Assembly (NCBI GenBank): GCA_035533075.1
Contig: DATLUO010000163.1
Location: 1-45,447 of the forward strand
Direction: 5' to 3'
Length of the DNA stretch: 45,447 nt
Source of the DNA: Pirellulales bacterium
GTDB lineage: Bacteria; Planctomycetota; Planctomycetia; Pirellulales; JAICIG01
The position numbers were made by a program, and so were the translations under genes. Positions 5,866 to 45,192 of the stretch are shown one piece after another. The number at the start of each line of letters is the position of its first letter. Positions within the stretch are counted from its first letter, which is position 1. The notes under the pieces were generated by a model that was not told the DNA's origin, ran no database searches, and worked only from the letters and a program-made list of their open reading frames with translations.

Positions 5866-8800
5866 CTACGAGTGTTTGCTGAAGAACTCGTCGGAGGCCA
5901 CGAAGCCGGCGATCACGTCTTCGTTGGTCATCAGTCCTTGAGCGAACTCGCTGACCCAGTAGTTGATTCCGGCCTGGTCGGGCGAGCGGCCCAGGAAGGT
6001 CTGGTAGTCGCCGGTGACGCGCGTGGTTTCGCGTTCCAGGCTGGTGGTGAAGCCCAGCGCCACCTGTTCTCGTGATTCGCCGCCGGCCAGTTGCGCCAGC
6101 CAGAACGATAGGCCGTTTGCATCGGCCGGTCGGTTCAGTAGTTTCAGATAAAGGGCGTTGACCCAGCCCGAGTCCGTGCCGCCCGCGTTGGTGTAGAACT
6201 CGGCCGACGCGATGAAGCCCGCTTCCAGCTCCTCGTCGGTCAGGCCGTGGTCGCGCAACTGGCTGGTCCAGTAGGCCAGGCCCGCGGCGTCGGCAGCGCG
6301 CCCCAAATACATCTCGTAAGCGGGCGTGATTATCTTGTCGGCGTAATACTCGTCGCTGTGCGTCAAAGCCGTCGCGAAGTCTTGCCGCGAGAGGCCGCCG
6401 GCCAACTGCCCGGCCCAATACGACACATCGGCGGCCGACGCCGCGCGGCCCAACACGTCTTGGAAGGCCGCCGCCACGTAGTCCTGCAACTGGCTCAGCG
6501 TCGGGCTCGGTCCTAGATGCGCCACGGGCAGCGGGGCCGGACCCGCCGGCGGCGCCGTCAGGCCCGAAAGCACCGGGTCGCCGGCCAGCGCTTGTTGGAA
6601 AATGCTGGGCAGCGACGTCACCGGCGCGAATCGCGCCGTCAGAAACGTGAGCGCGTCGATCCGGCCGTTCACCTGCACGACGTCGCTGGCGCTGTTGATT
6701 TCGGTGTTGGGCGTCACCGCGACCGCCGTGCCGCCGCCGGCGTTGACCGTGCTGTTCCCGTTGCCCGTCAACTGCTTGTAACTGACGGTGCCGTCGGCGT
6801 TGTATTGCGGAGCGAACTCGGCGAAGACGAAACTCGTTGCACTGCGGGCAGCGAGGCTCTCGCCCGTGCCGCTGGTGTCGCCTCCGCCGAACAGCACGTC
6901 CTCTCCCGTGCCGCCCAACAGGGTGTCGGCGTTGAGGCCGCCGATCAGCACGCCGAACGCACTCGTGTCGTTGGCCAGATCGTTGGAATCGACCGGCGAG
7001 CCATACATATAAAGGCTCTGGATGTTCTGGATTTGAATCGGGTCGGCGCTACCAAAATTGCCGACGTGCGCGTGGTAGACGTTTCCGGTCGCGGCGGCCG
7101 TCTGCGGCACGACCACGTTGAGCTTGTTATGGAAACCGCCGGGGCTGGTGCCGCCGTCGAGCTTCAACGTCGTCGTAATCGGCAACTCGCCGGGACCGGC
7201 CGACCCGTCGGCATTCTTCGTGGCGGTGTTCGGTAGGAACAGATTGAACGTATCGTCGACCAACTGGCTGCCAAGCTGGTTGCCGCCATTCACCTCGACC
7301 GTCGTGCCCGCGCCCATGTCGAGATACTCGACGAGCACGTGCGGCGCGTTCAAGGGGCGGCCGATCGACATGTTGTCGATGTTGTACACCTGCCCGCTGG
7401 TCGAACCTTGATCGTTGAGATCGAGGGTTTTCACCTTATCGACGACCAAGAGTCCGGCGATGCCGTCGAGGCGATGGCCCAGGTCGCCCACGTCGACGGT
7501 TCCGCTGGCCTGTCCCTTGAGATTGACCGGCGTGGTGCCGAGCGTGCTTTGAACATTGAAATCGAGGGCGGCGTTGGTGCCCAAATTCACGTAGACTTGT
7601 GCCAGGCCGCTGTAATTCACGGTTCCGGCCATGCCCAGCCCGGTGATGCTGGTGGCGGTGAGCGTGCCGGAAGTGCTGGTGGCGTCGCCGCCGTCGTCGA
7701 GGTTCAGCGTATTGTTGGCCCCGGCCGCGGCGACGTTCACGGTGCCGGCAATTCCGGAGACGACGCCCGCGCCGCTCGCGCCGGCGGTCGACGAGATGTT
7801 GACGGTGTCGCCGCCGCCGTTGGCGTTGATGTTGGTGGTGGTGCCCCCCAGCGTTTGTTGGAGGTTGATCGTGTCGTTGCCCGCCCCGCTGAAGACGTTG
7901 ATGGTGGGCGAGTTGATGGCGCCATCGAGATCGATCGTGGCACCGGGGGTGGTATCGTTGTTGTTGAAATCGGCCCGCAGGGTGACGGTTCCGGCGGTGG
8001 CCGCGAGGGTACTGCCGGCGTCGATCTTCAGATTGTCGCCGGCCCGCAGCTCGATGTTGCCGCCGCTCGACGTCAACGTGGAGCCGCCGCCGAGCTCCAG
8101 GTTGTCTTTCGGACCGCCGGCTTCGTCGTGCTGTTCCTCGGCCACGGTGATCAGGACGTTGCCCGTGGTAGTGACGTTGATGCCGGAGTTGAGCGTAAAC
8201 GGTCCGCTGGTGATGGTCAGCGCGGCGAGCGGATGGAGGCCGCCCACCTTACCCTCGAACTGCACGACGCCAAAGTTGCCGAAGGCGCGGCCGCCGCTAG
8301 TGTCGATCGTCAGCGCGGCGCCGCCGAGATTCAGCGCATCGACCGTCGAACTGAAGGTCACGTTGGCGTTGTCGTTGAGCGTGGCCAACGTGTCGTCGAT
8401 CGTTACCTGCACTGCGCCGCCGTAGCTCTGAGCGCCGGCGGATCTGATCAGGCCACCGTTGAGGTTGGACGTGCCGGTCACTGACAGCGAGTTCAGCGCG
8501 AATAGGCCGCCCACCGCGCCATCAAAGGTCACCGCGGCGTTGATCATCAACGCACGGGGAGTGGCGTCGCTGTCCAGCATGCTGGCGAAGGTGACCGAGG
8601 TGGCATTGAGCGTAGTGTCGGCCGAGAGCGTCGCCGCTCCGCCGTAATCCTGCGTGGTGGTGGTCGTAACCGCGCCCCCCTCAATGTCGGCCGTGCCTGT
8701 CACCGACAGCGACTTCAAGGGATTGGCGCCGCCGACCGCGCCGTCAAACGTGGCCGCACCGTGGATCGTGAGAACTCGGGCTGTGGTGTCGCTGTTCAGC

Positions 8801-11800
8801 GTACCGGCGAACGTCACCGTGGTGGCGTTGAGCGTGGTATCGGCCGAGAGCGTCACCGCTCCGGCGTAGCTTTGCCTGGTGGTGGTCGTGACGGCGCCCC
8901 CCTCAATGTCAGCCGTACCCGTCACCGACAAGGATTTCAGGGCGTGTAGGCCGCCCACCACGCCATCGAACAGGGCGTCGCCCGTGACGGTCAAGGCGTC
9001 GGTGTTGCTGGCGGCGTCGTCGAGCGTGCCGCCAAAGGTGATGGTGGTGCCGGTCAGATCGAGAGCCTTGCTCGTCGGCCCGACCGTGACCGCGCCGTCG
9101 TAGTTTTGCATCGTGCTGGTGGTGACCGCGCTGGCGGCCGAAGCGAAGCTGCTCGTTCCCGTGACGTGCAGCAAGAGCAGCTCTTTGGCGCCGCCCACCA
9201 CGCCGTCGAACACGGCGTTGCCGCTGACGGTCAAGGCGTCGGTGTTGCTGGCGGCGTCGTCAACCGTGCTTCCAAAGGTGACCGTGGTGCCGGTCAGATC
9301 GAGGGCCTTGCTCGTCGGTCCGACCGTGACGGAGCCGTCGTAGCTTTGCGTCGTGCTGGTGGCGACCCCGCTGGCGGCCGAGGCGAAGCTGGTCGTTCCC
9401 GTGACATGCAGCGAGAGCAGCTCTTTGGCGCCGCCCACCACGCCGCCGAACACGGCGTTGCCGCTGACGGTCAAGGCGTCGGTGTTGCTGGCGGCGTCGT
9501 CAACCGTGCTGCCAAAGGTGACCGTGGTGCCGGTCAGATCGAGAGCCTTGCTCGTCGGTCCGACCGTGACGGAGCCGTCGTAGCTTTGCGTCGTGCTGGT
9601 GGCGACCCCGCTGGCGGCCGAGGCGAAGCTGGTCGTTCCCGTGACATGCAGCGAGAGCAGATCCTTGGCGCCGCCCACCACGCCGCCGAACACGGCGTTG
9701 CCGCTGACGGTCAAGGCGTCGGTGTTGCTGGCGGCGTCGTCGAGCGTGCTGCCAAAGCTGATCGTGGTGCCCGTCAGATCGAGAGCCTTGCTCGTCGGCC
9801 CGACCGTGACCGTGCCATCGTAATTTTGCGTTGTGCCGGTGGTGACCGCGCTGGCGGCTAAGGCGAAGCTGCTCGTTCCCGTGACGTGCAGCGAGCGCAG
9901 CTCTTTGGCGCCGCCCACCACGCCGCCGAACACGGCGTTGCCGCTGACGGTCAAGGCGTCGGTGTTGCTGGCGGCGTCGTCGAGCGTGCTGCCAAACGTC
10001 ACGATGCCCCCGGTGCTGGTGAGATCCAGAGCAGCCCCCGTCGGACCAGCGGTCACGGTCCCATTGTAGTTCTGGGCGCCGCTGGTGGTGACGGCGCTGG
10101 CCAGCAGGGTGAAGTCGCTGGTGCCCGTCACGGTCAACGACTTCAGTGGCGTGCCACCGACCACGTTGTCGAACACGGCATTGCCGCTGACGGTGAGCGC
10201 GTCGGTGTTGGCGGTGGCGTCGTTCACGGTGTTGCCGAAGGTCACGCTGCCGCCGGTGCTGGTGAGGTCCAGAGCGGCCCCTGTGGGACCGACGGTCACG
10301 GCCCCGTTGTAGTTCTGGGCGCCGCTGGTGGTGACGGCGCTGGCCAGCAGGGTGAAGTCGCTGGTGCCCGTCACGGTCAACGACTTCAGCGGCGTGCCGC
10401 CGACCACGTTGTCGAACACGGCGTCGCCGGTGACGGTGAGAGCGTCGGTGTCGGCGGTGGCGTCGTTCACGGTGTTGCCGAAGTTCACGCTGCCGGCGGT
10501 GCTGGTGAGGTCCAGCGCGGCCCCGGTCGGACCGACGGTCACGGGCCCGTTGTAGTTCTGGGCGCCGCTGGTGGTGACGGCGCTGGCCAGCAGGGTGAAG
10601 TCGCTGGTGCCCGTCACGGTCAACGACTTCAGTGGCGTGCCGCCGACCACGTTGTCGAACACGGCATTGCCGCTGACGGTGAGCGCGTCGGTGTCGGCGG
10701 TGGCGTCGTTCACGGTGTTGCCGAAGGTCACGCTGCCTCCGGTGCTGGTGAGGTCCAGCGCGGCGCCCGTCGGACCGACGGTCACGGGCCCGTTGTAGTT
10801 CTGGGCGCCGCTGGTGGTGACGGCGCTGGCCAGGAGCGTGAAGTCGCTGGTGCCCGTCACGGTCAACGACTTCAGTGGCGTGCCGCCGACCACGTTGTCG
10901 AACACGGCATTGCCGGTGACGGTGAGCGCGTTGGTGTTGGCGGTGGCGTCGTTCACGGTGTTGCCGAAGGTCACGATGCCGCCGGTGCTGATGAGGTTCA
11001 GAGCGGCCCCCGTGGGACCGACGGTCACGGGCCCGTTGTAGTTCTGAGCGCCGCTGGTGGTGACGGCGCTGGCCAGGACGGTGAAGTCGCTGGTGCCCGT
11101 CACGGTCAACGACTTCAGCGGCGTACCGCCGACCACATTGTCGAACACGGCGTTGCCGGTCACGGTGAGCGCGTCGGTGTCGGCGGTGGCGTCGTTCACC
11201 GTGCTGCCGAAGGTCACGATGCCGCCGGTGCTGGTGAGGTCCAGAGCGGCCCCGGTCGGACCGACGGTCATGGCCCCGTTGTAGTTCTGAGCGCCGCTGG
11301 TGGTGACGGCGCTGGCCAGCAGGGTGAAGTCGCTGGTGCCCGTCACGGTCAACGACTTCAGCGGCGTACCGCCGACCACATTGTCGAACACGGCGTTGCC
11401 GGTCACGGTCAGCGCGTCGGTGTTGGCGGTGGCGTCGTTCACAGTGCTGCCGAAGGTCACGATGCCGGCGGTGCTGGTGAGGTCCAGAGCGGCCCCCGTC
11501 GGACCGACGGTCACGGGCCCGTTGTAGTTCTGAGCGCCGCTGGTGGTGACGGCGCTGGCCAGGACGGTGAAGTCGCTGGTGCCCGTCACGGTCAGCGACT
11601 TCAGCGGCGTGCCGCCGACCACGTTGTCGAACACGGTGTCGCCGGTGACGGTCAGCGCGTCGGTGTCGGCGGTGGCGTCGTTCACCGTGCTGCCGAAGGT
11701 CACGCTGCCGCCGGTGCTGGTGAGGTCAATCGCGGCTCCGATAGCGCTGATGACAACTGGTTGCTGGTAGTTCTGGTCGCCGCTGGTGTTGATCGCGCCG

Positions 11801-14800
11801 CCGTTCAGGTCGCTGGTGCCCGTGCCGTCGAGCGTCAGTGTCGTCAGGCCGGGAGCGGTTACGCCCACGGTATCGTCGAAGGTGGTCGTGCCGCTGCTGG
11901 TGACGTGCAAAGCGAAGGCACCGTCGACCGTCTTGGCGAAGGTCACATTGGTGGCGGTCAAGGCGGTCGTCGTTTGCAGCGTTACCGCGTTGTTGAACTT
12001 GAGCTGGGCCGCCTGCATCGCGTCGGTGTGGATCAGCGTCTGGCCGGTGCCCGGCGTGACGCCGTCGACCGTCAACGTGCCCAGCGCGTCGCCGGGCGAC
12101 TTTCCGACTTCGCCTTTGAAGGTCGTCGAAGGACTGTCGACCTCCAGGTCGTGGGCGGTGCCGTTGGTGTTGACGGTGTTGTCGAACGTGACGGCGGTGG
12201 CTGCTTTGACATTGCTGGTCGTTTGCAAAACGACCGCGTTCGCAAAGACGACCGTCGAAGCAACGACTTTGTCGGTGTTGACGTTCGTGGTTCCGCTGCC
12301 GCTGGTGGCGCCGTCGAAGGTGAGCGTGCCGAACGGGCCGCCGGCGCCGACTTCGCCGTCCAACGTCGTGCTGGAACTTTCCACCGTCAGGTCGTGGACC
12401 GTGCCGTCGGTGTCCAGCGTGCCGTTGAAGTCGATCGTGCCCGCCGCGGCGGTCGATTCGAGAGTCGCGGTGGCAGTGAGCTTGACGGCACCCGTGTAGG
12501 TCTGGTCGTTGACGGTTGTGATATCCGCGCCGATGTTGATCGTCTTGGCGGTGACCGACAAGGCGGCCGTGCCGGCAGTCAGATTCAAAGTGTTGAGATT
12601 GACAACATCGGTGTTGGTGGTGTCGTCGATCGTCAAACCGGCGTCAAAGTCGGCCGCGAAACCGGCGGTCGTGGTGACCGTGCCGCCGCCGTGGGTGTCT
12701 TTGATGGTAAGCGAACTGCCGGGTGCAACAAACGTCGTGGCTTCGAAGGCGGTGTTCGTGCTCGCCAGCTCCGGCATGCCGCCGTTATCTTCGAGCACGG
12801 CGTCGGCGCCGCCGGGCAAGACGAACACTACGTCCGTCGCCGTACCGGTGTTGCCGATCGGCGTGAGGTTCGTGTAGTCGATCACTTGCCCGCTGCTGCC
12901 CAACTGCACGCTGCCGGCGTGGGCGCCGGTATAGGTGTAGGTGTCGGTGTCGAACGAGCCGCCCAGGATATTGAGGGCATTGCTCGGAGTGCCGGGCAAC
13001 GCGCCTCCGTTGAACATGATGCCGCCCGCGATGACGAACGTGCCGCCCGAGTAGTCGATGTCGAGCGTATTGGCCACGTTGGCGGCGCCATTGATGGTGA
13101 CGGAGGTCACGCTGGCCAGGGGCCGGGAATCGAGCACCGTGGCGCCGCTGCGAAGCTGCAAGTTGCCGCCGCTTTGAATCAACCTCAGCGTGCCGCCGGG
13201 CGACGTGGCGTTGAACGGACCGGTGACGACGATCGCCACATCGTTTCCGGTGCCGCCCAGATAAGTGAGATAGGCGCTCAAGCCGCTGCCCAGAAGGTTG
13301 CTGCTGACGAGGGCCCCTTCGGCCAGGCCGGCGAAGGTGCCGCTGACAGGATTGCCGCCGCCGTTCTTGATGAGGATGTACTCGTCGCCCGCCTGCGGCA
13401 CGTAGCCGCCGAAGGAGCTCAGGTTCAGCGTGGCGCCGCCCAGGCTGACGTTGCCGCTGACGTTGTCTTCGGAATAGCTGCCGGCGGTGTTGCCGCCGAT
13501 CGCGACGTCGAAGTTCGCGCCGCTGGTCAGGCTGAGCGAACCGGTGTTGAGGATGGCGGGGGCGTCGCCGGGCGACAAACTGCCGCCGCTATTGACCGTC
13601 ACCGTGCCGTTGGCCGAGCCTTTGCCACCCAACGTGCCGCCGTTTTGCACCGTCAGGGCGCTGGCCGCGGCGGTCGAGCCGTCGACCAGCAATTTGCCGG
13701 CGCCGACCGTCGTGGCGCCCGTGTAGTCGTTCGTGCCCGACAGCGTCTGGGTGCCGGCGCCGTCCTTCGTCAAAGCGATCGTTCCGCTGCCGTCGTCGAT
13801 GCCGCCGGCGAACGTGCCGCCGCCGCCGCTGACGCCCACGGTCAAGACCGAGCTGGTCGCGGCGGCGCTGTTGGTGATTGTGCCGTCGCCGCTCAGTCCG
13901 TCGATCGACTCGCTCTGGCCGTTCATGTCGAGCACGGCCGGCAAATTGACGGCCAGCTCGCTGGTGTCGGCCAGGGCGTTGCCGCCCGCGCCGCTTTCAA
14001 GCTGGAAGGTCCCGCTCGTGAGGGTAATCGTGCCGGTGCCGGCGTCGAGGGCGTTGGCCGCGGCCAAATCGGCGGTGCCGACGCCGCTGACCGTGATGTC
14101 GCCGCCCGCCGACAATACCTGCGAACCGCTGTTGTCGATCGAGAGGCTGAGATTCGTGCCAGACGATGAGGTGCCGGCGGTGGCCGCGATGCCGATGGTG
14201 CCGCTGCCGACCGCGGTCAGATCGCCGCCCGTCGCCAGGTCGAAGCCGTCGTTGCCGCCGGTCGTGCCGCTGCCGCCGGTGGCGGTGACCGAGACGTTGC
14301 CGCCGGCGCCGGTCGTGATCAAGGCGCTATTGGCCACCAAGACGCCGACATTACCGCCCTGGTTGGACGCGCTGGAGATGCCGCCTTGTCCGGTCACCGA
14401 GACGTTGCCGCCGCTGGAAGTGACCTTCGACCCGGCGCCAGTGACATAAACGCCGAAATTGCCGTCTCCCGCAGCGGCGCCGCCGGTGCCGGTGACGGTG
14501 ACGGTTCCAGTTCCAGTGGTCTCAACGCCGCCGCCAAGGACTTCGATGCCGTAGTTCGAGCCGTTGCTGTTTCCGCCGGTGGCCTCGAGCAGCACATTGC
14601 CGCTGCCGGCAGCCTGGACGTAAACGCTATCGACGTCGATGCCGGCGAAATTGCCGCTGGCGGTTCCCGCGGTGTTGGCTTTGACGGTCAGATCGCCGTC
14701 GGTGCTGATGCCGACCACCGAGTCGACCGTGGTCACGGTCAGGCCCAGCGAGTCGACGAGCGCGAAGCCCGCCGATGAACTCTTGGCCGCCACGTCACTG

Positions 14801-17478
14801 ATGGCGCTGGGATTGGTCGAGAGGTCCGCTCCGCCCGATGCATCGACCGCCAGATCCGTGACGCTGACGGCCCCCGTGCCCGATTCTGTAACCGCGCCGC
14901 CGGTGAGGAGCGACAGAGTGCTGTAGCCCGCGTGCGTGGTGACGGGGGCGGTGACAGTAATATCGCCGCTGTTGTCGCTGCGGCCGATGCGCACCGTGCC
15001 TGCCGTGAGCTCCGCCAACGCCGTATCGCTCACATTCAGGTCGCCGGCCGTGGTGCCGCCGCCGAGGTCGATATTGCGCGCGGTCGTGGTGGCTTGCTGG
15101 ATGGTGACGGTGCCCGTGCCGGCGTCGATACCGTCGGTGGCGGTGTTGAGCACAAAATCATCGGCGCTGATCGTCACATCGCCGTTGCCGCCGTTGCGGT
15201 TGGTTTCAATCGAGGGGTTCGCCCCACCGTGGAGAGTGACGGTGCCGCCGGCGCCGGTGCTGAGGCTGATGGATCCGCCTTGGGTGGCCAGAATGGTCGG
15301 GCCGAAATCCGTTTCTAGGATGGAAACGTCGCCTCCGGCCGTGGCGCTGATGGTGCCGGTGCCGTGGGCGCTGACCAGCGAGCTGTCGTCGATGTTGATC
15401 TTGCCGCCGGCCGAAAGGACGACGCTCCCGCCGCCTTCGATGTCGCCGAAAGTCTGCGTGCCGGTATCGCCGACGAACAGGTTGCCGGCGGCGTCGAGCG
15501 TGGCCGTGCCCCCCGAGGACGCGACGGCACCGGTGAAACTGTCGAAGCCGGAGCCGTTGTTGCCGCCTAGCAAGATGTCGCCGCTGGTGGTGGTGACGCT
15601 CACCGCTCCCGGACCCTCGACGTTATCGCCGTTGGTCGTGATCGTGACCTTGCCGGCGTTGGTCAGGCTGATATCACCCGAGGTAGTGACGTGTACTCCG
15701 TTCACGCCGGAGATCACGCCGCCATTGATGGTGAGGTCGTCCGTGTTGCCAATAAAGATGCCCCCGGTCGCGGTTTGGGCCGACAGGTTGCTGACCTGGG
15801 TTGCCAGCGGCGTCGCAGACGAGCCGATGCCCGTGCTGGCCGACAGGGCGAGGCTGCCGCCCTTGATCGTGCCGGCGGTCTGGCTGATGGCGCCGCCGGC
15901 GTCGAGCGAAACGGTGCCGTTGGCGGTAATGCCGTCGACGTTGATGGTGTCGGCCGTCACGGTGAGGTCGCCGGCGCCCGTGGCCAAGTCGATGCCGTCG
16001 AGCGAGACGGTGGAGTTGGCCGTGTTGCCGTCGATCGCGAGGCTGGCCAGCGTGCCGCTGTATGTGATCGGCGCGGCGCCGTCACGGGTAACGCTGGAGT
16101 CGGTGACGACGTAGGTATGCGCCGCCCCGGTTGCATCGTTCACGTTCAAGGCGGCGGCAGCGGTCGACGTGGTGAAGGCCAGGCCCTGGGGCAGGCTGGC
16201 GCCGCTCGTATAGTCGACGTACAGCGAACCGTTGGTCAGCGTGGGGACGTTGCTCCCGCTGTTCCCGGTCGCGCTGACGGTTCCGGCGATGTACGTCGTG
16301 GTGTTGGTGCTGACGAGCGCGACATTGCCTTTGCCCGTTGATTTCACGGCCGCGCCGCCCACGATTTCGATCGCATCGTTGTTGCTTCCGCTGCCGCCCG
16401 TTCCGGTGATCTGGACGGCGGGACTGGTATCACTGGCAGAAGTCACCTGCGGACCAAACAACTCGACGCCGTAATTGGTGCTTGAGGGGCCGCTGCCGCC
16501 GGTGCCATCGAGGGTGACGGTGGCGGCGCCCGTCGAACTCACTCCTCCGGTGCCCTGAGCGTAGATTCCATCGTTGTGACCGCCCGTCCCGGAGCCGCCG
16601 GCGCCTGTGATCTGGATGTTCCCAGAGACGGATGTCACCGTGGCTGAGTCGAGAAAGACGCCTTCGTTGGATTCGGTGGGGCTACTGCCACCCGTGCCGT
16701 CGAGGGTAATGGTTGCCGAGCCGGTTGACGAGATCGTGCCGCCGCCAACAAAGATACCATCGCCGTCCGAGACGCCGCCATTGCCGCCCGTGCCGGTGAG
16801 TTGAATACTGCCGCTGGCCGAGGTGAGTGTGCCCGTGACGTCGATTCCGTCGAAGCTGCCGCTGCTGACCGCGGCCGTGTTCGCGCTGAGGATGACGTTG
16901 CCGCTGGACGTCGAGACGTTCGCTCCGCCGTTTACATCGATACTCGTATCGACGTTTGCATCCAACGTATTCGCGCCGAACGACGAGGCGCCATTGAGCG
17001 TCAAGCCGGGAAGCGCAGTCGAGTTGCCGAGGGTGACGGTGAAGTTGTTGGAATAGGCGTTGGCACCGCTGTCGTTGAAAGTCACCGAGTCGCTGCCCGA
17101 CGAGGCGCCAGTGTCGGTGATATCGATCCCGGTGGTGAAGGCGGCCATGCCTGCGGCGGTGACAGTCAGCGTCGCGGTGCCGTTGCCGCTGACGTTGGCG
17201 TCGTCCGTGCCGCTCCATGAACCGGAAGTCAGCGTGAGGTCGTAGGTGGTGCCGTTCGACACGATGGCCAGGGCGTCGTTCGTTTGCAGGGCGATGTCAA
17301 GCGTGGGGGCGCTGTCCGCGAAAGTCGCCAGCATGCGCCGGTCTTCCAGAAATTCATGGCGGAGAATGCTGAGGCGGTTGAGAAAGTCGGGGGCGCGAAA
17401 GTTGGACCGCAGCGTGCGCGGTTTCTTTTGACGGCGGCTGTTCTTACGAGAAGGCTTGGACCCGCGGTGAAAACTCAT
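5866..17478 (-). CDS. giant secreted repeat protein with DUF4214-type C-terminus
   Basis: About 3,870 residues. The start at 17478 (MSFHRGSKPSRKN) follows a GGGAG; the frame extends to 17589 but the extra residues look unrelated. A basic N-terminus leads to FLEDRRMLA (about 43-51), the planctomycete extracellular signature. Most of the protein is Gly/Ala/Thr/Ser/Asp-rich beta-strand repeat, including an autotransporter-associated repeat around residue 1260 (TLSGTNDYTGATTVGAGKLL). Two tandem arrays of 80-82-residue units span about residues 1900-2810. Near 3520 is a calcium-nonapeptide-like GGTGEDVLFGG. The last 220 residues hold four DUF4214-like half repeats (VLGRAAS, YLGRAAD, LLNRPAD, FLGRSPD). 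Cysteine is nearly absent. It is probably a cell-surface or matrix adhesin. No LPXTG, PEP-CTERM anchor or beta-barrel domain was seen, so how it is exported and held is unclear. Confidence 0.88.
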   Translation of the reverse strand: MSFHRGSKPSRKNSRRQKKPRTLRSNFRAPDFLNRLSILRHEFLEDRRMLATFADSAPTLDIALQTNDALAIVSNGTTYDLTLTSGSWSGTDDANVSGNGTATLTVTAAGMAAFTTGIDITDTGASSGSDSVTFNDSGANAYSNNFTVTLGNSTALPGLTLNGASSFGANTLDANVDTSIDVNGGANVSTSSGNVILSANTAAVSSGSFDGIDVTGTLTSASGSIQLTGTGGNGGVSDGDGIFVGGGTISSTGSATITLDGTGGSSPTESNEGVFLDSATVTSVSGNIQITGAGGSGTGGHNDGIYAQGTGGVSSTGAATVTLDGTGGSGPSSTNYGVELFGPQVTSASDTSPAVQITGTGGSGSNNDAIEIVGGAAVKSTGKGNVALVSTNTTTYIAGTVSATGNSGSNVPTLTNGSLYVDYTSGASLPQGLAFTTSTAAAALNVNDATGAAHTYVVTDSSVTRDGAAPITYSGTLASLAIDGNTANSTVSLDGIDLATGAGDLTVTADTINVDGITANGTVSLDAGGAISQTAGTIKGGSLALSASTGIGSSATPLATQVSNLSAQTATGGIFIGNTDDLTINGGVISGVNGVHVTTSGDISLTNAGKVTITTNGDNVEGPGAVSVTTTSGDILLGGNNGSGFDSFTGAVASSGGTATLDAAGNLFVGDTGTQTFGDIEGGGSVVLSAGGKINIDDSSLVSAHGTGTISATAGGDVSILETDFGPTILATQGGSISLSTGAGGTVTLHGGANPSIETNRNGGNGDVTISADDFVLNTATDGIDAGTGTVTIQQATTTARNIDLGGGTTAGDLNVSDTALAELTAGTVRIGRSDNSGDITVTAPVTTHAGYSTLSLLTGGAVTESGTGAVSVTDLAVDASGGADLSTNPSAISDVAAKSSSAGFALVDSLGLTVTTVDSVVGISTDGDLTVKANTAGTASGNFAGIDVDSVYVQAAGSGNVLLEATGGNSNGSNYGIEVLGGGVETTGTGTVTVTGTGGAAAGDGNFGVYVTGAGSKVTSSGGNVSVTGQGGISSASNQGGNVGVLVANSALITTGAGGNVSVTATGGSGTTGGNDGFDLATGGDLTAVGSGTIGIAATAGTSSSGTNLSLSIDNSGSQVLSAGGDITVSGVGTADLAAANALDAGTGTITLTSGTFQLESGAGGNALADTSELAVNLPAVLDMNGQSESIDGLSGDGTITNSAAATSSVLTVGVSGGGGTFAGGIDDGSGTIALTKDGAGTQTLSGTNDYTGATTVGAGKLLVDGSTAAASALTVQNGGTLGGKGSANGTVTVNSGGSLSPGDAPAILNTGSLSLTSGANFDVAIGGNTAGSYSEDNVSGNVSLGGATLNLSSFGGYVPQAGDEYILIKNGGGNPVSGTFAGLAEGALVSSNLLGSGLSAYLTYLGGTGNDVAIVVTGPFNATSPGGTLRLIQSGGNLQLRSGATVLDSRPLASVTSVTINGAANVANTLDIDYSGGTFVIAGGIMFNGGALPGTPSNALNILGGSFDTDTYTYTGAHAGSVQLGSSGQVIDYTNLTPIGNTGTATDVVFVLPGGADAVLEDNGGMPELASTNTAFEATTFVAPGSSLTIKDTHGGGTVTTTAGFAADFDAGLTIDDTTNTDVVNLNTLNLTAGTAALSVTAKTINIGADITTVNDQTYTGAVKLTATATLESTAAAGTIDFNGTLDTDGTVHDLTVESSSTTLDGEVGAGGPFGTLTFDGATSGSGTTNVNTDKVVASTVVFANAVVLQTTSNVKAATAVTFDNTVNTNGTAHDLEVDSPSTTFKGEVGKSPGDALGTLTVDGVTPGTGQTLIHTDAMQAAQLKFNNAVTLQTTTALTATNVTFAKTVDGAFALHVTSSGTTTFDDTVGVTAPGLTTLTLDGTGTSDLNGGAINTSGDQNYQQPVVISAIGAAIDLTSTGGSVTFGSTVNDATADTDALTVTGDTVFDNVVGGTPLKSLTVTGTSDFTVLASAVTTSGAQNYNGPVTVGPTGAALDLTSTAGIVTFGSTVNDATANTDALTVTGNAVFDNVVGGTPLKSLTVTGTSDFTLLASAVTTSGAQNYNGAMTVGPTGAALDLTSTGGIVTFGSTVNDATADTDALTVTGNAVFDNVVGGTPLKSLTVTGTSDFTVLASAVTTSGAQNYNGPVTVGPTGAALNLISTGGIVTFGNTVNDATANTNALTVTGNAVFDNVVGGTPLKSLTVTGTSDFTLLASAVTTSGAQNYNGPVTVGPTGAALDLTSTGGSVTFGNTVNDATADTDALTVSGNAVFDNVVGGTPLKSLTVTGTSDFTLLASAVTTSGAQNYNGPVTVGPTGAALDLTSTAGSVNFGNTVNDATADTDALTVTGDAVFDNVVGGTPLKSLTVTGTSDFTLLASAVTTSGAQNYNGAVTVGPTGAALDLTSTGGSVTFGNTVNDATANTDALTVSGNAVFDNVVGGTPLKSLTVTGTSDFTLLASAVTTSGAQNYNGTVTAGPTGAALDLTSTGGIVTFGSTLDDAASNTDALTVSGNAVFGGVVGGAKELRSLHVTGTSSFALAASAVTTGTTQNYDGTVTVGPTSKALDLTGTTISFGSTLDDAASNTDALTVSGNAVFGGVVGGAKDLLSLHVTGTTSFASAASGVATSTTQSYDGSVTVGPTSKALDLTGTTVTFGSTVDDAASNTDALTVSGNAVFGGVVGGAKELLSLHVTGTTSFASAASGVATSTTQSYDGSVTVGPTSKALDLTGTTVTFGSTVDDAASNTDALTVSGNAVFDGVVGGAKELLLLHVTGTSSFASAASAVTTSTMQNYDGAVTVGPTSKALDLTGTTITFGGTLDDAASNTDALTVTGDALFDGVVGGLHALKSLSVTGTADIEGGAVTTTTRQSYAGAVTLSADTTLNATTVTFAGTLNSDTTARVLTIHGAATFDGAVGGANPLKSLSVTGTADIEGGAVTTTTTQDYGGAATLSADTTLNATSVTFASMLDSDATPRALMINAAVTFDGAVGGLFALNSLSVTGTSNLNGGLIRSAGAQSYGGAVQVTIDDTLATLNDNANVTFSSTVDALNLGGAALTIDTSGGRAFGNFGVVQFEGKVGGLHPLAALTITSGPFTLNSGINVTTTGNVLITVAEEQHDEAGGPKDNLELGGGSTLTSSGGNIELRAGDNLKIDAGSTLAATAGTVTLRADFNNNDTTPGATIDLDGAINSPTINVFSGAGNDTINLQQTLGGTTTNINANGGGDTVNISSTAGASGAGVVSGIAGTVNVAAAGANNTLNLDDGGDATSTSGTLTATSITGLGMAGTVNYSGLAQVYVNLGTNAALDFNVQSTLGTTPVNLKGQASGTVDVGDLGHRLDGIAGLLVVDKVKTLDLNDQGSTSGQVYNIDNMSIGRPLNAPHVLVEYLDMGAGTTVEVNGGNQLGSQLVDDTFNLFLPNTATKNADGSAGPGELPITTTLKLDGGTSPGGFHNKLNVVVPQTAAATGNVYHAHVGNFGSADPIQIQNIQSLYMYGSPVDSNDLANDTSAFGVLIGGLNADTLLGGTGEDVLFGGGDTSGTGESLAARSATSFVFAEFAPQYNADGTVSYKQLTGNGNSTVNAGGGTAVAVTPNTEINSASDVVQVNGRIDALTFLTARFAPVTSLPSIFQQALAGDPVLSGLTAPPAGPAPLPVAHLGPSPTLSQLQDYVAAAFQDVLGRAASAADVSYWAGQLAGGLSRQDFATALTHSDEYYADKIITPAYEMYLGRAADAAGLAYWTSQLRDHGLTDEELEAGFIASAEFYTNAGGTDSGWVNALYLKLLNRPADANGLSFWLAQLAGGESREQVALGFTTSLERETTRVTGDYQTFLGRSPDQAGINYWVSEFAQGLMTNEDVIAGFVASDEFFSKHS
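9050..10060 (-). repeat. tandem repeat array B inside the giant gene (about 240-bp units)
   Basis: Four 240-bp units encode 80-residue repeats of the form AVTTS-TQNYDG-VTVGPTSKALDLTG-T-FGST-DDAASNTDALTVSGNAVFGGVVGGAKEL-SLHVTG. The two units around 9350-9830 are almost identical at DNA level, which points to recent duplication or gene conversion. On the C-terminal side (8650-9050) the pattern decays into shorter units of about 225 bp built on the same VGG-LKSLSVTG motif. Confidence 0.9.
10060..11770 (-). repeat. tandem repeat array A inside the giant gene (243-bp units)
   Basis: Seven units spaced 243 bp apart (equivalent points at 10085, 10328, 10571, 10814, 11057, 11300 and 11543) encode 81-residue repeats around TSDFTLLASAVTTSGAQNY, GPTGAALDLTSTGG, DATADTDALTV and FDNVVGGTPLKSLTVTG. 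Units differ at only a few positions. The last unit in the protein (about 10010-10250) starts as type A and ends as type B, a hybrid at the junction of the two arrays. Confidence 0.93.
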
Positions 17479-17598
17479 GGCCGATAACTCCCAGTGGTGG
17501 CAAAACCGCCTACAGCACGCCGGTCGCCCGTAAACCGGCTTATTCTCTCGGTCCGGGCATGAACCGTGGCCGCCCCGAAATTGAAGCACGTAAGTTCC

Positions 17599-43622: not shown

Positions 43623-43760
43623 CGCTTCTCTTTATCAACCGAGGTTCCCGGCGGCCTGCGACGGCGCGGGAGCTTGTTTCCGTATCGCGAATCCAGCTTT
43701 GTACTTTAAGCGGTCGCGCCGGGCAGGTCAATGAACCTTACGTCGGCCGAAAGGCTGGCG

Positions 43761-43766
43761 TATAAT
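43761..43766 (+). promoter_or_regulatory. candidate -10 element for the ABC ATPase gene
   Basis: TATAAT ends 9 bp before ATG 43776. If used, the mRNA would be nearly leaderless. The frame also has an ATG at 43731, which would place this box inside the coding region; the two starts are alternatives. Confidence 0.35.
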
Positions 43767-43775
43767 CTCTACGGC

Positions 43776-44795
43776 ATGGCCACTATCGAGATCAGCCGAC
43801 TCGCCAAGTCGTATCGCGTCTATCAGAAGCAGGAAGGGCTGCTCGCCTCGCTGGGCGGGCTTTTCCGCCGGCAGTATCGCACGGTCGAGGCGGTGCGCGG
43901 CATCGACCTGACCGTGGAACAGGGCGAGCTCGTCGCCTTTCTCGGCCCCAACGGCGCCGGCAAGACGACCACCCTCAAGCTGCTTTCCGGCGTCATCACG
44001 CCCACCAGCGGCACGGCCAGCGTCATGGGCCATGTGCCCTGGAAACGCGAAAACGCCTATCGCCGCCGCTTCGCCTTGGTGATGGGGCAAAAAAACCAGC
44101 TTTGGTGGGACCTGCCCGCCCAGGAGTCGTTCCGGCTGCACCAACAAATCTATCGCATCGAGCCGGTGCGCTTCGACCACACACTCAACGAGCTGGTCGA
44201 GTTGTTGGAAGTGGGCGGCCTGCTGCGGCAACCGGTGCGCGAACTTTCTCTGGGCGAGCGGATGAAGATGGAACTCATCGCCGCCTTGCTCCATTCGCCC
44301 GACGTGCTGTTTCTCGACGAGCCGACGATCGGCCTCGACGTGATCGCCCAGCACAACATCCAGACCTTTTTGCGGCACTATCAGCAGCATCGCCGCATCA
44401 CCATTCTGCTCACCAGCCACTACATGAAAGACGTGGCCGCGCTCTGCCAACGCGTGGTGATCATCGCGCACGGGCGGATCATGTACGACGGCTCTCTGTC
44501 GGGCATCGTCGACCGCTTCAGCGGCCACAAGGTGATCAGCTTGCAGTTTCCGGCCGACGCCGAGCCGCCCGCCGATTTGCACCGCTACGGCGAGATGCTG
44601 GAAGAACACTTTCCGCGGATCAAGTTTCGCATTTCGCGGCGCGAGGTGTCCGACGTGCTCACCGATCTGCTGGCCCGCTATACGGTGGAGGACGTGAGCG
44701 TGGAAGATCCGCCGCTGGAAGAAGTCATCGCCGAGCTATTTTCGCTGGCCGGCGAACAGGCGGCTTCGGAGCAACCCGCCACGGGCGCGTTGTGA
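43776..44795 (+). CDS. ABC transporter ATP-binding protein (ABC-2 exporter type)
   Basis: 339 residues from ATG 43776 ([15 protein letters not shown]), the usual domain start. Walker A is [16 protein letters not shown], the Q-loop [13 protein letters not shown], the signature [16 protein letters not shown], Walker [13 protein letters not shown] and the H-loop LLTSHYMKD. The [10 protein letters not shown] form is typical of NatA/Ecs-like ATPases whose partners are two ABC-2 (DUF990-type) permeases. A C-terminal domain of about 100 residues follows. No permease gene follows in the remaining 650 bp, so its partner lies beyond the repeats or elsewhere. It is divergent from hisF. The substrate is unknown. 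Confidence 0.93.
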
Positions 44796-44844
44796 ACCCC
44801 ACCGTTGGGCCAACTGGCGGAATCTGCCAGTTGATCGGGGGTTC
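44794..44844 (+). terminator. nested hairpin after the ABC ATPase
   Basis: An inner stem CAACTGGC/GCCAGTTG (44811-44818, 44826-44833) with a 7-nt loop lies inside an outer stem GAACCCC/GGGGTTC (44794-44800, 44838-44844). It begins at the stop codon. There is no U-tract, so it may be a processing structure or a dispersed repeat as well as a terminator. Confidence 0.5.
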
Positions 44845-44895
44845 CGCGTCCCGCCGGCAAGCCAAGCGAAGATCATCGCGGTCTAAAACACTTGT

Positions 44896-45062
44896 GAAGA
44901 ATAGGCGTGGTTCAAAGCAGGGTAACACTTCCCGTTGGAGTTCTGCCAGCACCTCCTGCCGGAAGTACCTGCCGCTGCGTTGGTTACGTCCTGACGCGGC
45001 CCACGCAGGGCGGCGAAAGCTGTTACCCTGAGATTCCTTGCTTTGAACCACGCCGAAGAATA
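44896..45062. mobile_element. MITE-like element with 8-bp target site duplication
   Basis: The element spans 44904-45054 (151 bp) and is bounded by perfect 16-bp terminal inverted repeats, GGCGTGGTTCAAAGCA (44904-44919) and TGCTTTGAACCACGCC (45039-45054). Just inside are inverted GGGTAACA (44920-44927) and TGTTACCC (45021-45028). The octamer GAAGAATA occurs directly on both sides (44896-44903 and 45055-45062), exactly as a target site duplication would. It contains no gene. The GG-starting ends and 8-bp duplication would suit an IS1595- or ISL3-like transposase, but that link is inferred. Confidence 0.72.
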
Positions 45063-45123
45063 AAAGCATTCAGCGTCATTGCCCGGCGGTAACACCAATC
45101 CGGACATGCCTTTACAGCCACGC

Positions 45124-45143
45124 GCGAACGCATCAACGTTCGC
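45124..45143. terminator. hairpin followed by an A/T-rich tract
   Basis: GCGAACG-CATCAA-CGTTCGC (45124-45143) is a perfect 7-bp stem, followed by TTATAAAAGCTTTT. It could be an intrinsic terminator, but no gene ends nearby on the plus strand; it may belong to the adjacent repeat. Confidence 0.35.
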
Positions 45144-45192
45144 TTATAAAAGCTTTTAAGCCCACCGCCTTGTGACTGGCACAAACCGCCCT

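Follow-up and report, generated by a model that had tools for sequence, protein, structure and literature searches.

The window analysed here, 45,447 nt that make up the whole of contig C163 in an 8.54-Mb assembly of 296 contigs, carries near its right end a short stretch bounded by inverted repeats, and raises the question of what this stretch is and what brought it there. It is very likely a MITE, a derivative without a transposase of its own; the enzyme that would move it in trans would belong to an unannotated IS family, whose transposases are of the DDE type and remotely IS256/Mutator-like. The features on which the argument turns are as follows.

44795–44903, plus strand: left half of an older dispersed repeat (the outer repeat), interrupted by the MITE
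44888–44903, plus strand: target motif ACACTTGTGAAGAATA, ending at the left tip of the MITE
44896–44903: left copy of the 8-bp target duplication, GAAGAATA
44904–45054, plus strand: very probable MITE, 151 bp, with a 17-type left end and a 27-type right end
44904–44919, plus strand: left terminal inverted repeat, GGCGTGGTTCAAAGCA
44920–44927, plus strand: subterminal motif GGGTAACA, at position 17 from the left tip
45021–45028, minus strand: subterminal motif GGGTAACA, at position 27 from the right tip
45029–45038: 10-bp spacer, at the right end only, an offset of about one helical turn
45039–45054, minus strand: right terminal inverted repeat, the identical 16 nt
45055–45062: right copy of the 8-bp target duplication, GAAGAATA
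45055–45163, plus strand: right half of the outer repeat, beginning with the duplicated octamer (8 bp)

The original prediction described a noncoding mobile element with perfect 16-bp ends, equally perfect flanking octamers and a second inverted pair in its body, and each of these points is confirmed. The window has no exact match to GGCGTGGTTCAAAGCA other than these two tips; when up to three mismatches are tolerated the matches number three, whereas 100 shuffles averaged 0.59, three of them reaching that number. At 95%, the pairing of the ends reaches 19 nt, and the second pair, CAGGGTAACA and TGTTACCCTG, is perfect over 10 nt (44918–44927 and 45021–45030). Length alone, at 151 bp, excludes a transposase gene inside the element. 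The recent insertion that the prediction read from the perfect ends is supported by other evidence, since copies of the main subfamily are 99–100% identical and their flanks differ by 2–16%, but perfect ends by themselves are no proof of youth. The other near-identical right ends assembled as far as the tip, six in all (C6, C56, C116, C121, C142, C268), have one common mismatch to the left end; a single base of difference thus makes the ends of the window copy perfect.

A search of the same genome, which the prediction had proposed as a check, recovered many dispersed and nearly identical copies: besides the window copy, 12 stretches match at 98–99%, and C89 and C128 hold one divergent copy each. 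These two divergent copies are 99.1% alike and resemble the other copies at 68.5–69.6% over 116 nt, and therefore constitute a second subfamily. Both ends are assembled in five copies (C163, C56, C6, C89, C128). Six left ends (C21, C124, C154, C70, C204, C184) and four right ends (C268, C116, C121, C142) lie at contig ends, indicating that the assembly breaks inside the MITE repeat; across the two subfamilies, at least 11 left junctions are distinct. The element is absent from all 56 relatives of the same order (one from the same family), leaving its own genome as the only match among 57. Element length is not claimed as fixed: searches without a length limit gave 151 bp (window), 149 bp (C89) and 151 bp (G611), the 152 bp of the Singulisphaera copies came from a pattern restricted to 131–161 bp, and the G373 element measures 128 bp. 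A lone tip-like GGCGTGGTTCAAAAGC preceded by AGAAAAAG also occurs on C6 (L030, 467–482), 400 bp from the MITE copy there, and is possibly a decayed end.

Pattern searches recovered similar ends in other genomes. The paired tips matched four loci in GTDB r220 contigs, all in a single Singulisphaera MAG (DAIDJG01), and found nothing in viral contigs. The end pattern matched 4 of 392 genomes of the phylum (this one, G330, G367 and G373), and a slightly wider version matched 7 of 397 genomes of the class (this one, Singulisphaera G513, G611, G729, G607, G436 and G736). The element in G611 is 151 bp long and has CAGAAACC as its target duplication; G729 and G367 each offer one convincing 17-type end, with no second end found in the DNA examined. 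The single ends in G607, G436 and G736, with a transposase relative absent from their loci, look like chance and were set aside. Viral contig L145, which matched the end pattern, was likewise taken as chance, since it shows only one end and its tblastn matches do not go below E 0.012. The 17-type end in G373 (L092, L093, L096, L097) is a 43-bp near-palindrome holding two tip sequences, which gives this one end the look of a separate miniature element. The interiors are weakly related at best between genera (alignment z of at most 3.6), against a z of 5.6 between the two subfamilies of the window's genome and 21.9 between two Singulisphaera copies. No description of this element appeared among the papers listed by literature searches, and none of the eight papers containing the 11-mer GGCGTGGTTCA concerned mobile elements, judged by title.

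The ends themselves share a geometry. Within the first 45 nt, and with up to two mismatches, the best GGGTAACA match starts at position 17 from one tip (18 in Singulisphaera) and at 26–28 from the other, and this 17/27 offset recurs in 11 of the 11 elements examined, namely six MITEs (two from one Singulisphaera genome) and five full-length elements. For the MITEs, part of this geometry was built into the search patterns, but not for the five full-length elements, which a protein search recovered. In the full-length elements, the 17-type end lies on the 5' side of the gene.

These longer partners bear on what might mobilize the MITE. Elements with the same ends, their tips sharing GGCGTGGTTCA with the MITE, measure 1.66–1.79 kb where uninterrupted and encode a DDE-type transposase of about 490 aa. 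A protein search for the transposase among the 392 genomes of the phylum (E 1e-10) matched three: this genome, G080 and G330. G080 harbors a 1791-bp element with an uninterrupted frame of 511 codons between both ends (counted from stop to stop), and G330 has one end followed by a transposase-like ORF with an apparently truncated or frameshifted C-terminus, its second end not found. Among named plasmids, full or long matches annotated as "hypothetical protein" occur in Acaryochloris (several) and Burkholderia latens, with transposase fragments in Leptolyngbya, Paraburkholderia and Caballeronia; Acaryochloris pREC1 contains an uninterrupted gene of 491 aa. No relatives were recovered in phages or viral contigs. 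In the window's own genome, the first 24 nt of the end (tip plus GGGTAACA) recur unchanged on contig C39, where a homologous ORF with 48% identity to the G330 one comes next and runs off the contig; more decayed pieces stand at the start of contigs C201 and C81. The prediction's search for an autonomous element with the same ends therefore succeeded in part: longer elements exist, but in this genome only as decayed pieces, with no intact transposase assembled. The transposase profile likewise gave no match at E 0.001 in G057 (Singulisphaera), G373 or G367, though such ends are present there; a helper acting in trans is thus what we infer for these genomes.

The affinities of this transposase are remote. 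Neither Pfam nor NCBIfam gave a match above a cut-off, and none of the four weak matches among the solved structures searched was a transposase. The NCBIfam IS256 model (NF033543) matched four proteins at E 8e-7, 6.5e-3, 5e-5 and 3.5e-5, with 28.3, 15.5, 22.5 and 23 bits. A profile–profile comparison with an IS256 set of six proteins gave 78.8% (E 1.6e-5, 144 columns), whereas five column shuffles reached no more than 0.4%, and the alignment places D197 opposite a D of IS256 and H221 opposite an H. By our own reading of the protein alignment, D143, D197, D218–H221 and E421 (in SSLVENLNSRLR) are candidate residues; the D(2)H motif is invariant in five of five aligned proteins. As described, the IS256-like p-MULT superfamily has 8- or 9-bp duplications, a circular transposition intermediate, a C/D(2)H motif 11–19 residues after D2, and a helical insert of 99–138 residues between D2 and E; its ISLre2-type and some ISKra4-type members are targeted, with unequal ends that set orientation (PMC3942029). 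In the present family, the 8-bp duplication is seen in the MITEs (10 of 14 copies with both flanks) and not in the full-length elements (0 of 5). D2 is followed by D(2)H, but at 21 residues after D197 in P0002, and over that region the IS256 profile similarity is remote yet significant. The family differs in the 224 residues from D197 to the candidate E421, which exceed the published insert, the assignment of E being our own, and in scoring far below the 150-bit IS256 cut-off. Targeting appears to be shared with the ISLre2- and ISKra4-type members, but here the apparent target is a motif within repeats, hit in both orientations. Because the spacing misfits the published ranges, the protein is called here a remote relative of IS256, not a member, that probably works like an IS256-type transposase.

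Could the MITE instead be moved by a known family, such as IS256, IS6, ISL3 or an IS1595-like element, with the likeness of its GGCGTGGTTCAAAGCAGGGTAACA ends to the new ends incidental? All of these families generate duplications of about 8 bp, so duplication length alone fits several of them, and the IS256 model matches 11 of 30 genomes (this one and 29 relatives considered together), eight above the cut-off. However, IS256, the one known family searched for in the window's genome, gives no match there, which weakens the most obvious rival helper. The tips, the subterminal motif and the 17/27 spacing, moreover, coincide with those of the new family in the five protein-found elements, and C39 joins the same end to the new transposase within this very genome. 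We consider a known-family helper very unlikely, and the ends point instead to the unannotated family as the source of movement.

Insertion of the MITE is recorded in its flanks. Among the 14 copies, from four genomes, that are assembled on both sides, 10 are bordered by an exact 8-bp duplication (3/5 in this genome, 3/4 in Singulisphaera, 1/1 in G611 and 3/4 in G373), a count that leaves out three left-only and two right-only contig ends of this genome and that, for G373, where 10 of 14 half-ends were read, covers the four loci with both ends assembled (L092, L093, L096, L097). The original prediction named copies without duplicated octamers as evidence against it; the four exceptions are of that kind, but the majority are not. 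In this genome the octamers match in C163, C89 and C128 and mismatch in C56 and C6 as assembled; they are also unmatched at S75 and at L097 of G373. Pairing loose contig ends yields four exact octamers (C154/C121, C70/C6-right, C6-left/C142 and C21/C56), which suggests that C6 and C56 are cross-joined, whether in assembly or by recombination, an explanation that depends on choosing partners that match. The C21|C56 pairing is backed by an empty paralog on C249 with a single AAGAATAC. Read on both strands, the 14 octamers (10 plus the four pairings) approach GAAWWTTC. No exact 8-bp duplication flanks any of five full-length elements (G080, pREC1, pREC4 twice and pMB01), several of which are visibly broken.

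Empty sites provide the complementary evidence. Eight copies of the outer repeat span the site without an insert and with a single octamer; C117 is 97.6% identical to C128 minus its insert over 206 columns, and the window minus its insert is 92.7% like C250. The prediction had called for an empty single-octamer site in a relative; such sites occur in paralogous repeats of the same genome, but not in a relative, the element being present in 0 of 56. Nor is its suggestion of a rearranged site supported, since a clean duplication together with empty paralogs indicates a simple insertion.

The outer repeat (44795–45163 minus the insert; also loci L045–L048) is about 210 bp, longer in some copies and often truncated, with a hairpin, CCAACTGTCGGATTCCGACAGTTG, and the end GCTTATAAAAGCTTTTAAGC. 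It accounts for 43 matching stretches in the genome, with halves counted apart and the two in the window included. Seven insertions hit the same nucleotide of it: C163, C89, C128, the left-flank-only copies C204, C184 and C124, and the C70|C6 pair. This coincidence might reflect a single composite of MITE and outer repeat that spread together, with the octamers belonging to the outer repeat and no independent insertions, and the seven filled copies are what such a composite would give. That reading is, however, very improbable and was rejected. The eight empty copies do not fit it, and MITEs of one subfamily are 99–100% identical over 116 nt whereas their 105-nt flanks differ by up to 18% (82–98% identity within a subfamily, 79–98% over all 21 pairs). 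Two subfamilies only about 69% alike occupy the same site in both orientations; C124 and C6, for example, have opposite MITE orientations in flanks that are 98% identical. Near-identical MITEs, diverged flanks and opposite orientations together indicate repeated independent insertion.

Other insertions lie outside the outer repeat (C154, C121, C39, C116, C6-left, C268 and C21|C56). The flanks of C154, C121, C39 and C116 have no outer-repeat match, and those of C6-left and C268 have only matches of at most 31 nt; C6|C142 adjoins a 27-nt remnant of the outer repeat, and C21|C56 is in a different repeat with only short stretches in common with it.

Judging from natural copies, insertion looks strongly targeted. 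The motif ACACTTGTGRARAAYA (up to one mismatch) has 20 genomic copies, against none for a control pattern, and nine of the 20 stand at an element tip, in both orientations: directly in C6, C39, C89, C124, C128, C163, C184 and C204, and with one base between in C21. Because seven of these nine filled sites are copies of one repeat (the outer repeat), the recognised sequence may exceed 16 nt. Of the remaining two, that in C21 is in a second repeat and that in C39 has no outer-repeat match beyond the motif region. Insertions also occur without the motif, at the C154|C121 (GAAACTCC), C56-left, C268 and C116 junctions. The Singulisphaera genome may show the same safe-harbour targeting: of its four copies, two, opposite in orientation, occupy the same GATATTTC within a recurring motif, and their loci also contain that motif uninterrupted.

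Two observations touch on the target. The second repeat (L134 on C249, L136 on C267, L138 on C256 and the C21|C56 site) contains the target motif too, and in L134 the motif forms a hairpin, ACACTTGTGAAGAATACAAGTGT, whose loop edge coincides with the insertion point; a target hairpin might matter for target choice. A target-like 16-mer with two mismatches also lies near the left end in two of seven full-length elements or fragments, ACACTTGTGGAGGAAA in G330 (L088, 1594–1609) and ACACTTTTCGAGAATA in C39 (L031), which may reflect self-resemblance of the target, or chance.

That selection maintains the element as a structured RNA gene or a regulatory hairpin is extremely improbable: the whole element folds strongly (z of −6.9 and −6.6 on the two strands), but the interiors of five elements fold like shuffles (z of −0.3 to −2.0), Rfam matched no family in the window at its gathering score, copies occur in both orientations with target duplications, and only one genome of 57 has the element. 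The RNA gene was accordingly rejected. The strong fold is attributable to the terminal and subterminal repeats, and the long hairpin that the prediction pointed to is not supported as a feature in itself. The same holds for its claim of an ABC ATPase that lacks its permease. The ATPase gene (43731–44795, Pfam ABC_tran) ends where the outer repeat begins, at 44795, but the contig ends at 45447, 385 bp past the right octamer, and a permease may lie beyond. Elsewhere in the window, a GC-rich stretch runs from 45195 to the contig end at 45447, with the words GCCGACCGTAGCCCTTT and GACACGCGTGTCGCCTCGGCGCGTGCCGCCG present twice each, and an open frame of 3907 codons on the minus strand (5866–17589) is perhaps a gene for a giant protein.

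We return, then, to a MITE moved in trans. The element has inverted tips, a duplication with single-copy empty sites, dispersed copies and no transposase gene, and by sequence comparison it shares its ends with an autonomous element. In the mechanism we propose, the transposase would bind the tip and GGGTAACA as a two-part site, and because one end has an extra turn of DNA, the ends would not be equivalent within the synaptic complex. The 8-bp duplication would arise from staggered strand transfer, and target choice would be guided by ACACTTGTGRARAAYA or a somewhat wider context, in either orientation, with an octamer preference of approximately GAAWWTTC. It is possible, though we advance this tentatively and would not put it at even odds, that these elements form a separate family of targeted DDE transposons, characterized by two-part ends shifted by about one helical turn and by choice of a motif of about 16 bp, whose MITEs reuse a fixed "safe harbour" in the dispersed repeats of each host.

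Two other known systems invite comparison. Bacterial MITEs such as MITEAba12 are short, lack a transposase gene, and have inverted ends, a target duplication and many near-identical copies, all of which apply here; unlike them, the present element has an unnamed helper family, a 17/27 offset in common with full-length elements, and strongly directed nesting in older repeats. REP/REPIN palindromes, which are moved by the HUH-type RAYT, are similarly intergenic, palindromic and without an internal gene. However, the present element differs from these in its 16-bp tips with 8-bp duplications and in a linked transposase that resembles a DDE family rather than the HUH type.

An anonymous repeat is thereby tied to a family of transposases missed by the curated libraries searched here, and the ends of the MITE match those of unannotated elements in planctomycetes, cyanobacteria and Burkholderia. 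These ends offer a marker for annotating such elements. The combination of the 17/27 geometry with a strong target preference, moreover, makes transpososome asymmetry and target choice directly testable on a 151-bp substrate.
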